In this document: piece after piece, positions 58,818 through 64,000 of the stretch | How positions within the stretch are numbered: the first letter of the stretch is position 1 | How the letters are laid out: each line of letters starts with the position of its first letter | Assembly (NCBI RefSeq): GCF_040499845.1 | Contig: NZ_CP159342.1 | Coordinates: 1,302,001 to 1,366,000 of the forward strand | DNA length: 64,000 bases | DNA from: Micromonospora sp. CCTCC AA 2012012 | Lineage (GTDB): Bacteria > Actinomycetota > Actinomycetes > Mycobacteriales > Micromonosporaceae | Reading direction: 5' to 3' | The notes under the pieces: model-generated | What the model was told of the DNA's origin: nothing | Database searches by the model: none | What the model saw: the letters and a program-made list of their open reading frames with translations, nothing else | Translations under genes and position numbers: made by a program

Positions 58818-59690
58818 ATGGGTGAGATCAAGGTGGGCACCGCCTCGTGGACCGACCGGACGTTGCTGGACTCCGGCTGGTATCCGCAGAGCGCGGACAC
58901 CCCGGAGAAGCGCCTGGCGTACTACGCCCGGCAGTTCCCACTGGTCGAGGTGGACGCCACCTACTATTCGCCGCCCGCCGAGCGGACGGCGAAGCTCTGG
59001 GTGGACCGCACCCCGCCCGGCTTCACCTTCAACATCAAGGCGTTCAGCCTGCTGACCGGGCACCCGACCCGGGTCGGTGCGCTCTACAAGGACCTGCGCC
59101 CCGACACCGGGAAGAAGAACCTCTACCCGGACGACCTGCCGCCGCAGGCGTACGAGGAGGTCTGGACGCGCTTCCTGTCCGCGCTCGACCCGCTGGTCGA
59201 GGCGGACCGGCTCGGCGTGCTGCTGTTCCAGTTCCCGCCCTGGTTCACCATCAAGCGGGACAACAAGCAGTACCTGCTGGAGGTGGCGCGGCGCTGTGCC
59301 CCGCTGCGCCCGGCCTTCGAGTTCCGGCACGCGTCCTGGTTCGACGGGGACAACCGCGACGAGACGCTCGGCTTCCTGCGCGAGCACGACCTGGCGTACG
59401 TCTGCGTCGACATGCCGCAGGGGCACCGGTCGTCCGTACCCCCGGTGCTGGCGGCCACCGCGGAGCTCGCGGTGGTCCGCTTCCACGGGCACAGCGACAA
59501 GTGGACCAGCAAGGACATCCACGAGAAGTTCGGCTACGACTACTCCGACCGGGAGCTGCGCGACTGGGCGCCGAAGCTGCGCGAGCTGGCCGGCCAGGCC
59601 GCGCAGACCCACGTGCTGATGAACAACTGCTACCGCGATTTCGCGCAGCGCAACGGGGCGACCCTGCGCGGACTGCTCGACGCCGACTGA
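58818..59690 (+). CDS. DUF72 family protein (copy 1)
   Basis: A 290-aa TIM-barrel-like protein of the DUF72 (YecE) family. KVGTASWTDRTLLDSGWYP, FPLVEVDATYYSPPAE, LLFQFPPWF, FEFRHASWF and HGHSDKW are typical. The family is widespread with no settled activity. A second, distant DUF72 gene is at 60377-61207 on the other strand. Start ATG 58818. Confidence 0.85.
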   Translation: MGEIKVGTASWTDRTLLDSGWYPQSADTPEKRLAYYARQFPLVEVDATYYSPPAERTAKLWVDRTPPGFTFNIKAFSLLTGHPTRVGALYKDLRPDTGKKNLYPDDLPPQAYEEVWTRFLSALDPLVEADRLGVLLFQFPPWFTIKRDNKQYLLEVARRCAPLRPAFEFRHASWFDGDNRDETLGFLREHDLAYVCVDMPQGHRSSVPPVLAATAELAVVRFHGHSDKWTSKDIHEKFGYDYSDRELRDWAPKLRELAGQAAQTHVLMNNCYRDFAQRNGATLRGLLDAD

Positions 59691-59999: not shown

Positions 60000-60420
60000 G
60001 CAGCTGATTTCCGCGTTCGAGTCCTCGATGGACAAGACGAACGTGATCCTGAAGGAGATCGAGTCGGCGTACGGCTGGCCGAAGGAGCAGCGCAACCAGT
60101 CGTACGCGGCGTTGCGCACGGTGCTGCACCTGCTGCGCGACCGGATGCCGGTGGCGGAGAGCGCCGAGTTCGCCCAGCAGTTGCCGGTGCTGCTGCGGGG
60201 CATCTACTTCGAGGGCTGGCAGCCGGAGAACGTGCCGATCAAGCTGAACCGGGACGACTTCCTCTACGAGGTCCGGCAGGGCTTCCCGTACGACGTGGAG
60301 GGCGGCCCGCAGCGGGTCGTGCAGGTGGTCCTGGACACCCTGCGCCGGCACGTCACCCAGGGCGAGTGGCAGGACGTCAAGTCGCAGATGCCGCGGGACC
60401 TGGCCCAGCTGATCCCGTGA
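59992..60420 (+). CDS. DUF2267 protein
   Basis: A 142-aa helical protein. SYAALRTVLHLLRDRMPVAE, FAQQLPVLLRGIYFEGW and the C-terminal VVLDTLRRHVTQGEWQDVKS are characteristic of DUF2267, whose function is unknown. It is translationally coupled to the 64-aa protein. It converges on DUF72 copy 2 and overlaps its 3' end by 44 nt. Confidence 0.88.
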   Translation: MAEQLISAFESSMDKTNVILKEIESAYGWPKEQRNQSYAALRTVLHLLRDRMPVAESAEFAQQLPVLLRGIYFEGWQPENVPIKLNRDDFLYEVRQGFPYDVEGGPQRVVQVVLDTLRRHVTQGEWQDVKSQMPRDLAQLIP

Positions 60421-61207
60421 CCGGAACCGACCCGGCCCGTCCCGTCATGGGGCGGGCCGTCGGGGTCCGGGTCACCGGGTGCCCCGCGGCCCGGGCCAGG
60501 CCGCCGAAGGCCACCGCGTCGATGATCGCCGCGCCACCCGGGTCGTTGTTGAAGTAGACGTACGCCGGCTCGGTGTCGGCGAAGGCGTCGGCCAGCCGGT
60601 GCACCCAGGAGGCCAGCGCGGTCCGGCCGTAGCGCGGCCAGGGTCGGGCGCGACCCTCGTGCAGTCGCAGGTAGCCGAAGTCGGTGGTGCGCCACAGCGG
60701 TGTCACCGGTCGGCTCAGTCGGTCCGCCCAGACCAGCGCGGCGCGGCGGCGCTCCAGCACCCGCCGGACCTCGTCCGTCCACCAGGAGGGGTGCCGGGGC
60801 TCCACCGCCACCCGCACCTCGGCGGGGAAGAGTCGCAGGGTGGCGTCCAGGGCGGCGGGGTCGGCCCGCAGGTTCGGTGGGAGCTGGACCAGCACCGGAC
60901 CGAGCTTGTCGCCCAACCCGTCGGCCCGGTCGAGGAAGCGCGCCACCGGCTCGGCCGGTTCGCGCAGCCGCTTGATGTGGGTGAGGTAGCGGCTCATCTT
61001 CACCGCCACCCGGAAGTCGTCGGGGGTGCGGTCCCGCCAGGCGACGAAGGTGTCCCGCTCGGGCAGCCGGTAGAAGGCGTTGTTCACCTCCACCGTGGCG
61101 AACCGCTCGGCGAAGTGCTCCAGCCAGCGCCGCTGCGGCAGCTTCGCCGGATAGAAGCGGTCCCGCCAGTCGCGGTACTGCCAGCCGGAGGTGCCGAGCA
61201 GGATCAT
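60377..61207 (-). CDS. DUF72 family protein (copy 2)
   Basis: A 276-aa DUF72 protein: ILLGTSGWQYRDWRDRFYP, FATVEVNNAFYRLPE, LVQLPPNLRAD, VAVEPRHPSWW and YVYFNNDPGGAAIIDA. The start is ATG 61207, set by a TATGAC box 6 nt upstream; longer starts at 61264 or 61288 would run into the CebR-like operator. The C-terminal ~30 residues are a low-complexity tail overlapping the DUF2267 gene on the opposite strand. Confidence 0.85.
   Translation of the reverse strand: MILLGTSGWQYRDWRDRFYPAKLPQRRWLEHFAERFATVEVNNAFYRLPERDTFVAWRDRTPDDFRVAVKMSRYLTHIKRLREPAEPVARFLDRADGLGDKLGPVLVQLPPNLRADPAALDATLRLFPAEVRVAVEPRHPSWWTDEVRRVLERRRAALVWADRLSRPVTPLWRTTDFGYLRLHEGRARPWPRYGRTALASWVHRLADAFADTEPAYVYFNNDPGGAAIIDAVAFGGLARAAGHPVTRTPTARPMTGRAGSVPVTGSAGPGPAASAT
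60434..60458. terminator. Terminator-like hairpin for the convergent DUF2267/DUF72 pair
   Basis: GGCCCGTCCC and GGGGCGGGCC form a 10-bp stem with one wobble pair and a 5-nt loop, 13 nt after the DUF2267 stop. It lies within the DUF72 C-terminal tail. Confidence 0.45.
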
Positions 61208-61213
61208 CCCCAC

Positions 61214-61219
61214 GTCATA
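61214..61219 (-). promoter_or_regulatory. -10 box of leaderless DUF72 copy 2
   Basis: Minus-strand TATGAC, six nt before ATG 61207. Confidence 0.5.
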
Positions 61220-61265
61220 CCCGGCGGGTGGGCGCTTGACGCCGGGACGGCGGGCTGTCAGCATG

Positions 61266-61279
61266 TGGAAGCGCTCCCA
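61266..61279. promoter_or_regulatory. CebR-like operator upstream of the xylanase gene
   Basis: TGGAAGCGCTCCCA differs at one base from the 14-bp CebR/CelR palindrome TGGGAGCGCTCCCA, the LacI-family site that controls cellulose and xylan enzyme genes in Streptomyces and Thermobifida. It lies 59 nt before the xylanase ATG, where a repressor would block transcription. No CebR gene is in this window. Confidence 0.75.
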
Positions 61280-61338
61280 TCGGTCCACGTCACAGTCTCG
61301 TCACCGCCCGCGGTGACCCCGACGAAGGACAGGACCGC

Positions 61339-62811: not shown

Positions 62812-62817
62812 CCTCAG

Positions 62818-62855
62818 GCGGGCCCCGGCGAACCGTCCGCGTCGCCGGGGCCCGC
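62818..62855 (+). terminator. Terminator of the xylanase gene
   Basis: A perfect 14-bp stem (GCGGGCCCCGGCGA with TCGCCGGGGCCCGC) and 10-nt loop, 6 nt after the xylanase stop. It separates the xylanase from the repeat-peptide operon. Confidence 0.8.
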
Positions 62856-62859
62856 CGTC

Positions 62860-62875
62860 TACGGTGGGTTAGAAG
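62860..62875 (+). promoter_or_regulatory. Candidate promoter of the repeat-peptide operon
   Basis: TACGGT (62860-62865) or TAGAAG (62870-62875) could serve as -10 box, giving a leader of about 70-80 nt that carries GAGGGAGC before ATG 62952. The placement right after a terminator supports an independent unit. Confidence 0.4.
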
Positions 62876-62951
62876 ATCGCGCGTGGGGTACCACCCGCTG
62901 CACGACGAACCCCGACGCACGGCGGGGCGGCACACCCGAGGGAGCACACCC

Positions 62952-63257
62952 ATGGCACTCAATGACGACGACATGCAGACCACCAGCGGCGGCGGCCTCG
63001 AAGGCCCGGCCGACGGTGGGGCGACCCCGGGCCACCAGGACGGCGGCGCGGACGGTGGCGCCGAGGGCCCGGCCGACGGTGGGGCGACCCCGGGCCACCA
63101 GGACGGCGGCGCGGACGGTGGCGCCGAGGGCCCGGCCGACGGTGGCGCGACGCCCGGTCAGCAGGACGGCGGTGCCGACGGTGGCGCCGAGGGTCCCGCC
63201 GACGGTGGCGCGACCCCGGGCCAGCAGGACGGCGGCGCCGACGGCAGCGCGAGCTGA
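62952..63257 (+). CDS. Repeat peptide, candidate precursor of a modified (RiPP-like) peptide
   Basis: A 101-aa protein. Residues 1-16 (MALNDDDMQTTSGGGL) look like a short leader ending near a Gly triplet. Residues 17-100 are four copies of a 21-aa unit that reads EGPADGGATPGHQDGGADGG plus A. Copies 1-2 have His at position 12, copies 3-4 have Gln. Copy 4 has one Gly-to-Ser change. There is no signal peptide, Cys or membrane segment, and the core is Asp- and Gly-rich. GAGGGAGCACACCC precedes ATG 62952. The hydroxylase gene starts 1 nt after the stop. I know of no named family for it; a structural or metal-binding protein is the alternative to a RiPP precursor. Confidence 0.7.
   Translation: MALNDDDMQTTSGGGLEGPADGGATPGHQDGGADGGAEGPADGGATPGHQDGGADGGAEGPADGGATPGQQDGGADGGAEGPADGGATPGQQDGGADGSAS
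63000..63251 (+). repeat. Four 63-bp coding repeats
   Basis: Units start at 63000, 63063, 63126 and 63189. Units 1 and 2 differ at one base. Units 2 and 3 differ at seven codons, six of them silent. Units 3 and 4 differ at nine codons, eight silent. The amino-acid repeat is therefore better kept than the DNA. Confidence 0.9.
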
Positions 63258-63258
63258 C

Positions 63259-64000
63259 GTGACGTACCTCGACCCGCCGGACGGCCACGGCCGTCCGGCG
63301 GTTCCGTCTCCGGCCGCCGACGCCCTCGCCCGCTGCATCAGCGTCGAGCCGGCCAAGTTCGCCGCCGCGCACTGGGGACGCGCGCCGCTGCTGTCCCGCG
63401 CCGCCGAACTGCCCAACCCGCGGGGCTTCACCGACCTGCTCAGCCCCGCCGACGCCGACGAACTGCTCAGCCGGCGGGGACTGCGTACCCCGTTCCTGCG
63501 GGTGGCGAAGGACGGCCAGCTCGTGCCGGCGGCCCGGTGGACCGGCGGCGGCGGCGCCGGCGCCGAGATCGGCGACCAGGTCCTCGACGAGCGCATCCTG
63601 GCGCAGTACGCCGGCGGCGCGACCCTGGTGCTGCAGGGCCTGCACCGGATCTGGCCGGCCCTGGTCGACTTCGCCCGCGACCTCGGCACCGCGCTGCGCC
63701 AGCCGTTGCAGGTCAACGCCTACCTGACGCCGGCCGGCAGCCAGGGCTTCGCCACCCACTACGACACCCACGACGTCTTCGTGCTCCAGGTCGACGGCCG
63801 CAAGCACTGGCGGATCCACCCGCCGGTGCTGCCCGACCCGCTGGAGAAGCAGCCCTGGGGCGGCCGGGCCGACGAGGTCTCCGCCACCGCCGACGGGTCC
63901 GCCGCGCTCGACGTGGTGCTGGAGCCGGGCGACGCGCTCTATCTGCCCCGCGGCTGGCTGCACAGCGCGCAGGCGCAGGAGTCCGCCTCGCTGCACCTCA
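63259..64000 (+). CDS. JmjC/cupin-4 2-oxoglutarate oxygenase (partial, runs off the window)
   Basis: 247 codons are visible; the gene has no stop before the window edge. The fold is that of ribosomal-oxygenase-like (YcfD/MINA-type) JmjC hydroxylases, which hydroxylate Arg or His side chains. FAAAHWGRAPLLSR is the typical start. The iron motif lies in FATHYDTHDVFVLQVDGRKH (His and Asp of HYD), with the second His in YLPRGWLHSAQ. Such enzymes act on proteins or peptides. GTG 63259 begins 1 nt after the repeat-peptide stop, so the two are coupled, and the repeat peptide is the obvious substrate candidate. Confidence 0.85.
   Translation, partial: MTYLDPPDGHGRPAVPSPAADALARCISVEPAKFAAAHWGRAPLLSRAAELPNPRGFTDLLSPADADELLSRRGLRTPFLRVAKDGQLVPAARWTGGGGAGAEIGDQVLDERILAQYAGGATLVLQGLHRIWPALVDFARDLGTALRQPLQVNAYLTPAGSQGFATHYDTHDVFVLQVDGRKHWRIHPPVLPDPLEKQPWGGRADEVSATADGSAALDVVLEPGDALYLPRGWLHSAQAQESASLHL

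Follow-up and report, generated by a model that had tools for sequence, protein, structure and literature searches.

Among the JmjC hydroxylases, the human proteins NO66 and MINA53 are described as histidine hydroxylases, and FIH as an enzyme that takes Asn, Asp and His residues in repeat proteins of the ankyrin type (PMC4543633). JmjC/cupin enzymes have also been described in pathways for ribosomally synthesised and post-translationally modified peptides (RiPPs), where BipG and PbsQ hydroxylate ornithine in biphenomycin-type peptides (PMC12707348, PMC12257519), whereas hydroxylation of Asp in RiPP precursors is ascribed to MNIO and HEXXH enzymes (PMC12636437, PMC13060819). Bregman et al. (2025) report that fish and algal PF08007 proteins carry folds resembling the RiPP recognition element (RRE), and place the closest bacterial homologues (~30% identity) in RiPP-like contexts (PMC12710340). 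Here we describe a two-gene unit at the end of a 64,000-nucleotide stretch of the genome of Micromonospora sp. CCTCC AA 2012012 (hereafter the window; C1:1302001-1366000 of a genome of one 6.73 Mb contig), in which the gene for a 101-aa repeat peptide is followed, 1 nt after its stop codon, by the gene for a 423-aa JmjC/cupin-4 oxygenase. From sequence comparison and structure prediction, we consider it likely that the unit encodes a multi-core peptide together with an Fe(II)/2-oxoglutarate oxygenase that is guided by the peptide's leader and hydroxylates its Asp residues at the beta position, and that it represents a candidate new RiPP-like class.

The locus can be compared with each of these systems. 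FIH resembles the proposed enzyme in being a JmjC hydroxylase with Asp among its targets in repeats (PMC4543633). The RRE-like folds on PF08007 proteins are consistent with the leader docking considered below, and section 6 of that paper mentions neither a precursor family or repeat nor an Asp target or a Suc_Fer partner (PMC12710340). Like BipG and PbsQ, the enzyme is a JmjC-type oxygenase that goes with a ribosomal precursor peptide, on which we propose that it acts; in contrast to those enzymes, which are described with an ornithine target and in many-enzyme clusters, it accompanies an Asp/Gly repeat core as the single modifying enzyme. It is likened to NO66 (RIOX1), MINA53 (RIOX2) and YcfD/RoxA by sequence and model, and differs from them in that its gene adjoins a repeat-peptide gene. 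FIH acts on folded repeat proteins and is not known to act on a linked peptide, and the MNIO and HEXXH aspartate hydroxylases have folds unrelated to that of the JmjC oxygenase.

The peptide consists of the leader MALNDDDMQTTSGGGL, four 21-aa units and a terminal Ser, each unit having the general form EGPADGGATPG(H/Q)QDGGADG(G/S)A; the first two carry His and the last two Gln. Tandem Repeats Finder detects the repeat with a 63-bp period, 3.9 copies and 92% matches (62999-63244). A four-unit peptide 1 nt before a JmjC/cupin-4 oxygenase with an intact HxD...H site had been read from the sequence alone and is confirmed. That reading had also allowed for transport or enzyme genes beyond position 64000; extension of the contig revealed no gene in the same direction after the oxygenase, the next genes lying convergently on the minus strand, so that the unit here comprises two genes.

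Coordinates (positions in the window) of the peptide-oxygenase unit and its flanking elements.
Feature	Position	Strand	Basis
Precursor-like peptide, 101 aa, ATG...TGA, very acidic, repeat-rich	62952..63257	+	Open reading frame (ORF) reading; homologues
Leader MALNDDDMQTT	62952..62984	+	Leader pattern; ordered in the model of an orthologous fusion (L005)
Core unit 1, EGPADGGATPGHQDGGADGGA	63000..63062	+	Tandem Repeats Finder; ORF reading
Core unit 2, EGPADGGATPGHQDGGADGGA	63063..63125	+	Tandem Repeats Finder; ORF reading
Core unit 3, EGPADGGATPGQQDGGADGGA	63126..63188	+	Tandem Repeats Finder; ORF reading
Core unit 4, EGPADGGATPGQQDGGADGSA	63189..63251	+	Tandem Repeats Finder; ORF reading
JmjC/cupin-4 (ROX-fold) Fe(II)/2-oxoglutarate oxygenase, GTG start, 423 aa	63259..64530 (window part 63259..64000)	+	Sequence; locus L003
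HYD, the HxD part of the iron site (enzyme residues H167 and D169)	63757..63765	+	Invariant, 22 orthologues
Distal iron ligand H235	63961..63963	+	Invariant, 22 orthologues
Ribosome-binding-site-like GAGGGAG	62938..62944	+	Sequence, inference
Perfect 15-bp GC hairpin 3′ of the xylanase gene, terminator-like, no U-tract	62817..62856	+	Sequence; fold
Promoter-like GGTTA-N14-GGGTA	62867..62890	+	Pattern recurrence upstream of the peptide across loci

The oxygenase matches the Pfam family JmjC_2 (PF08007, E 4e-30). Residues H167, D169, H235 and K182, the last of which we take to be the 2-oxoglutarate-binding lysine, are invariant in 22 orthologues and align to the same residues of NO66. The predicted model has a full-length NO66/MINA53-type fold, with NO66, MINA53 and YcfD as its nearest structures, and contains the elements of ROX-family architecture, namely a JmjC domain, dimerisation-type helices and a C-terminal winged helix. 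Identity to NO66 is 27-28% over the aligned fold, and FIH appears at Foldseek ranks 41-50.

The pairing of peptide and oxygenase is conserved far beyond the window. Complete or fragmentary oxygenase orthologues occur in 56 of 60 sampled genomes of this antibiotic-producing genus, with fragments alone in G004, G040 and G054; three of the remaining four lack a match and one has a paralogue only. The peptide was found by pattern at 52 of 55 same-genus loci, the other three being contig ends or disrupted (L018 stops short of the peptide, the upstream sequence of L047 is 159 nt long and L059 has a disrupted reading frame). One of the 52, L054 (genome G050), is frameshifted: its peptide frame exits and re-enters the normal frame within the repeats and its oxygenase match is split too, which may reflect sequencing error or decay. 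Outside the genus, all 20 loci of the same order carry the peptide (L076 by eye), and no such peptide lies upstream of six paralogous JmjC_2 genes (L080-L085). Among named relatives, it is present at 77 of the best 80 of 563 loci, the misses being L099 (contig end), L148 (the same genome as L059, from a second source) and L164, the last two with disrupted reading frames.

Across the class, oxygenase matches at E≤1e-20 occur in 128 of 394 genomes, and the best-hit loci of 90 of these were read, the 38 weaker ones being left out. An Asp-rich repeat peptide lies directly upstream at 61 of the 63 loci that reach ortholog grade (≥373 bits; L166-L228), counting as positive the marginal L226 (Asp-rich, 127 nt away); seven of these 63, including the locus of the window, also belong to the relatives set, and five of the seven are part of the search profile A1. 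The 27 weaker loci are divided equally between DGTD-type repeats (group B, 9), a 35-aa single-core peptide, ...GGDSDGTDSSSDFI (group C, 9), and neither (9). The sequence-only reading had stated in advance that it would fail if homologous oxygenases rarely sat beside such repeats; the ortholog-grade loci show the opposite and the distant relatives are mixed. In the phylum search, 42 of 296 genomes match, 29 of them in other classes; 19 loci from these other-class genomes were read and 10 left out, and the Asp-rich peptide is present at 18 of the 18 with upstream sequence (L296 ends before the peptide), with an unlike repeat unit in L302. The pair occurs in many other actinobacterial families.

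Several comparisons indicate that the pairing is real and old, far above chance. The same scan applied to other genes (≥150 aa) of 30 neighbourhoods gave an Asp-rich upstream peptide at 0 of 252, since all four genes flagged among 256 were group B or C oxygenases (L271, L272, L273, L274); its sensitivity is partial, the true pairs L146 and L159 being left unflagged. In the reverse direction, a search of the 394 class genomes with the window peptide (E≤1e-6, up to 12 candidates scored per genome) gave 47 matches in 42 genomes, all beside the oxygenase by coordinates. This search reaches the closer precursors (42 genomes vs 63 with an ortholog-grade locus), and the absence of orphan peptides therefore holds only at that sensitivity. 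In a tree of 126 oxygenases, built by a quick method and with some long branches, precursor type requires 6 changes compared with a shuffled mean of 38.5; the DGTD-type L248 was entered as type A, and the classification labelled L088 and L156 'none' although both have the peptide. The earlier proposal of a repeat peptide with a short leader dedicated to a JmjC oxygenase is upheld by this linkage, which recurs class- and phylum-wide and is two-way in the sample.

The pattern (D/E)(D/E)(I/M/V/L)x(T/S/R/G/A) is found within the first 24 residues at 174 of 223 precursor loci, a count in which loci were not made unique and groups A, B and C were pooled; group C peptides have a different N-terminus. 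Peptide and oxygenase lie in the same frame at 83 loci. We aligned 27 of the 83, read through as fusions, with 8 lone oxygenases and folded the L005 fusion, in which residues 1-10 have a mean predicted local distance difference test (pLDDT) score of 86, with a strand at 9-12, and only the first ~13 residues of the peptide exceed pLDDT 50. Residues 14-113 fall below 50 and the enzyme part scores high. Since the core is also repetitive and aligned, it serves as a control within the same chain, and the predicted ordering of the N-terminus is as expected for a leader.

The arrangement expected of a RiPP-type system, a gene-encoded precursor that adjoins the gene of its putative modifying enzyme, the two being conserved together, is seen here, and the RiPP idea of the sequence-only reading is well supported by the conserved pairing, with a leader-ordering signal in this one model. 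No family in NCBIfam or Pfam matches the window peptide at E≤1, and the precursors P0236, L189, L272 and most of L216 match none in NCBIfam at E≤0.01, so that the peptide belongs to no curated family searched. Searches of open full text in PMC brought up no account of the peptide family or its repeat motifs. As JmjC enzymes and Asp-hydroxylated peptides are both known from RiPPs and this family came up in none of the open text searched, we regard it as a candidate RiPP-like class. Public records name some of these peptides (P0140 and P0142, from Leifsonia and Amycolatopsis) 'BatC protein', a name for which we see no basis.

As to the residue that would be modified, Asp occurs in all 168 distinct cores of type A (a set that takes in the DGTD-type L248 and one or more rows extended at the N-terminus), compared with 162 for Pro, 139 for Thr and 137 for His, which makes Asp the sole plausible target present throughout. 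Within these cores Asp is followed by Gly 1744 times, the next commonest residue being Ser (78). The L206 core is essentially (GADG)n, with only a P and a V before the core, and those of L290 and L291, from other classes, are nearly all D with A, S, T or G. If one side-chain hydroxylase accepts all core types, Asp must therefore be its site, provided that the same residue is modified in every lineage. The natural His-free and (GADG)n precursors make the target residue directly testable. Spacer and core number differ within the genus Micromonospora, and in the precursors L005-L010, L017, L022, L031, L040, L043 and L046 an extra degenerate stretch (e.g. GADRGAERGADRGAD) follows core unit 1.

We propose that the N-terminal leader (DDD(I/M)xT) would bind the oxygenase, perhaps via its C-terminal winged-helix-like domain, and that the Fe(II)/2-oxoglutarate JmjC centre would then hydroxylate side chains of the disordered repeat core. 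The likeliest site would be the beta carbon of the Asp in the repeated D-G motif, hydroxylated several times per chain, and the product would be an array of beta-hydroxy-aspartates. This proposal builds on the gene pairing, its conservation and the intact catalytic residues, which are observed directly, and on the fold and leader ordering as modelled; the oxygenase probably hydroxylates the aspartates of the peptide. If so, a ROX-fold enzyme would build a RiPP class, and orphan bacterial 'NO66-like' genes would acquire a substrate. Several observations weigh against it. The closest solved relatives of the enzyme hydroxylate ribosomal His or Arg and not Asp; two class loci of one family (L222 and L223) have a degenerate peptide only, and the nine distant relatives of the last category above have no Asp-rich peptide. 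The leader pattern is absent from 49 of the 223 loci, an entire clade that begins with sequences like MSELNPEGPADGG among them, and leader docking reflects the pLDDT of one model of one orthologue. Finally, the unit in Micromonosporaceae contains no protease or exporter (no protease is found in the Micromonospora unit), and a secreted, cleaved product is therefore not supported.

Modification of the peptide at another residue, be it His, Pro or Thr, would fit the frequency of these residues in the cores and the position of His directly before DGGADG in 281 of 702 such motifs. The enzyme itself could be taken to favour His, as N153, Y155 and S244 are invariant in the 22 orthologues and residues of these kinds presumably contact the substrate histidine in MINA53 and NO66, and its human relatives are His hydroxylases (PMC4543633). 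The earlier reading had likewise offered His as a site. However, 31 of the 168 distinct cores are without His, which led us to reject it as the universal site, and the L206, L290 and L291 cores described above also weigh against His, Pro or Thr; we consider a target other than Asp quite improbable. That the oxygenase is instead a ribosomal-protein hydroxylase, with the peptide as an unmodified co-transcribed partner such as a pseudo-substrate inhibitor or an acidic chaperone, would agree with a full-length ROX fold nearest to NO66, MINA53 and YcfD, but the linkage in both directions points to the peptide as the substrate, the multi-copy cores differ in number and lineage type, repeats would be superfluous for an inhibitor, and relatives occur in RiPP-like contexts, including a prolyl oligopeptidase beside the 35-aa peptide at 9 of 9 group C loci. 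We consider this reading improbable. A low-complexity artefact, in which a GC-rich repeat is open by accident, might be suspected from the strongly biased composition and from other long frames that are open across the region too; it is refuted by recurrence of the pair in genus, class and phylum and by the reverse search, and the conservation of leader, start, stop and spacing across families, together with the control genes, leaves it practically no probability.

A further reading concerns the function of the product and is compatible with Asp hydroxylation: the hydroxy-Asp array may bind iron or another metal, which an adjacent [2Fe-2S]-type protein, Suc_Fer-like or, in group C, FhuF-like, would reduce or release. 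Beta-hydroxy-Asp is known to serve as a ligand in siderophores. The gene immediately downstream of the oxygenase is Suc_Fer-like at 22 of 30 class loci (Micromonospora accounts for three of the other eight), at 17 of 19 phylum-set loci (one of which, L299, belongs to the class) and at 15 of 20 15-kb loci, or 15 of 16 once group C and peptide-less loci are excluded; three representatives scanned pass the cut-off for PF06999 (E 4e-15 to 9e-20). FhuF-like genes occur within about 6.5 kb at 3 of 3 large group C loci, and the two proteins scanned pass FhuF_C. In opposition to this, no Suc_Fer gene stands beside the pair at any of 61 named Micromonosporaceae loci with enough sequence (L086-L152) or 28 Micromonospora loci, and a Suc_Fer partner in the genome of the window was rejected, with no match at E≤0.001. 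Many genomes that lack the oxygenase also have Suc_Fer, which is present in 213 of 394 genomes, compared with an oxygenase match in 128 of 394; the FhuF-like proteins fall below the cut-off for the main FhuF models (PF06276 and, for one protein, TIGR03951), and no uptake genes were seen. An IdeR-type iron box upstream was likewise rejected, best-mismatch counts resembling those of shuffled sequence. Metal binding is thus a possible function of the product, and the scheme with reductive release is a tentative one that we think unlikely to hold in full. Broader still, and rather doubtful, is the view that a leader-guided NO66/MINA53 relative makes poly-(beta-hydroxyaspartate) peptides phylum-wide, which with Suc_Fer or, in one branch, an FhuF-like protein would act as a metal (iron) buffer or carrier; if true, the NO66-type ROX fold would be at home in precursor-peptide modification, with the C-terminal winged helix as a leader-binding element.

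The sequence-only reading, which overall is partly supported, had also given the two genes their own promoter region behind a strong terminator. The hairpin that stands between the unit and the upstream xylanase gene (named by eye) is stable, with a fold of -40.5 kcal/mol and a z-score of -5.3 that no shuffled sequence equalled, and a promoter-like element follows it; what did not stand is the canonical form of either signal, scans for U-tract terminators and for sigma-70 promoters being empty. The element, GGTTA-N14-GGGTA, is a pattern composed only after inspecting the sequences, and occurs upstream of the peptide at 44 of 49 loci in Micromonospora (0.06 expected under single-base shuffling) and at 20 of 32 in other Micromonosporaceae (0.2 expected). 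Elsewhere it is rare: other families have it at 4 of 75 loci, and groups B and C at 1 of 18. We take it to resemble stress-sigma promoters of the SigF/SigB type.

Other small peptides accompany relatives of this oxygenase. Group C (L271, L272, L273; L234-L254) is a separate branch in which a JmjC oxygenase goes with a prolyl oligopeptidase and a 35-aa peptide, for example MDPIEVEVEDLAEVTSRDITAGGDSDGTDSSSDFI; it resembles a compact RiPP cluster that has a single core and encodes its own protease. At L231/L275 (genome G447) a JmjC oxygenase relative adjoins a small peptide of another kind (MDEIQVETAPAADPQFLICDPDPSDDCWIVCNPNYCY). An ABC exporter, an S9-type peptidase and a membrane protein that is thioredoxin-like in part can be recognised there by eye, and this context too is RiPP-like. 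Near the JmjC oxygenase paralogues at L081 (genome G068) is a peptide of 84 aa that ends in ...ISASTGCISNPSGPSC and does not resemble the Asp-repeat precursors. In the window itself, two ORFs near the unit, at 58818-59690 (+) and 60377-61288 (-), encode proteins with similar starts (GTASWTDRTLL and GTSGWQYRDW), which we presume may be of the DUF72 type.
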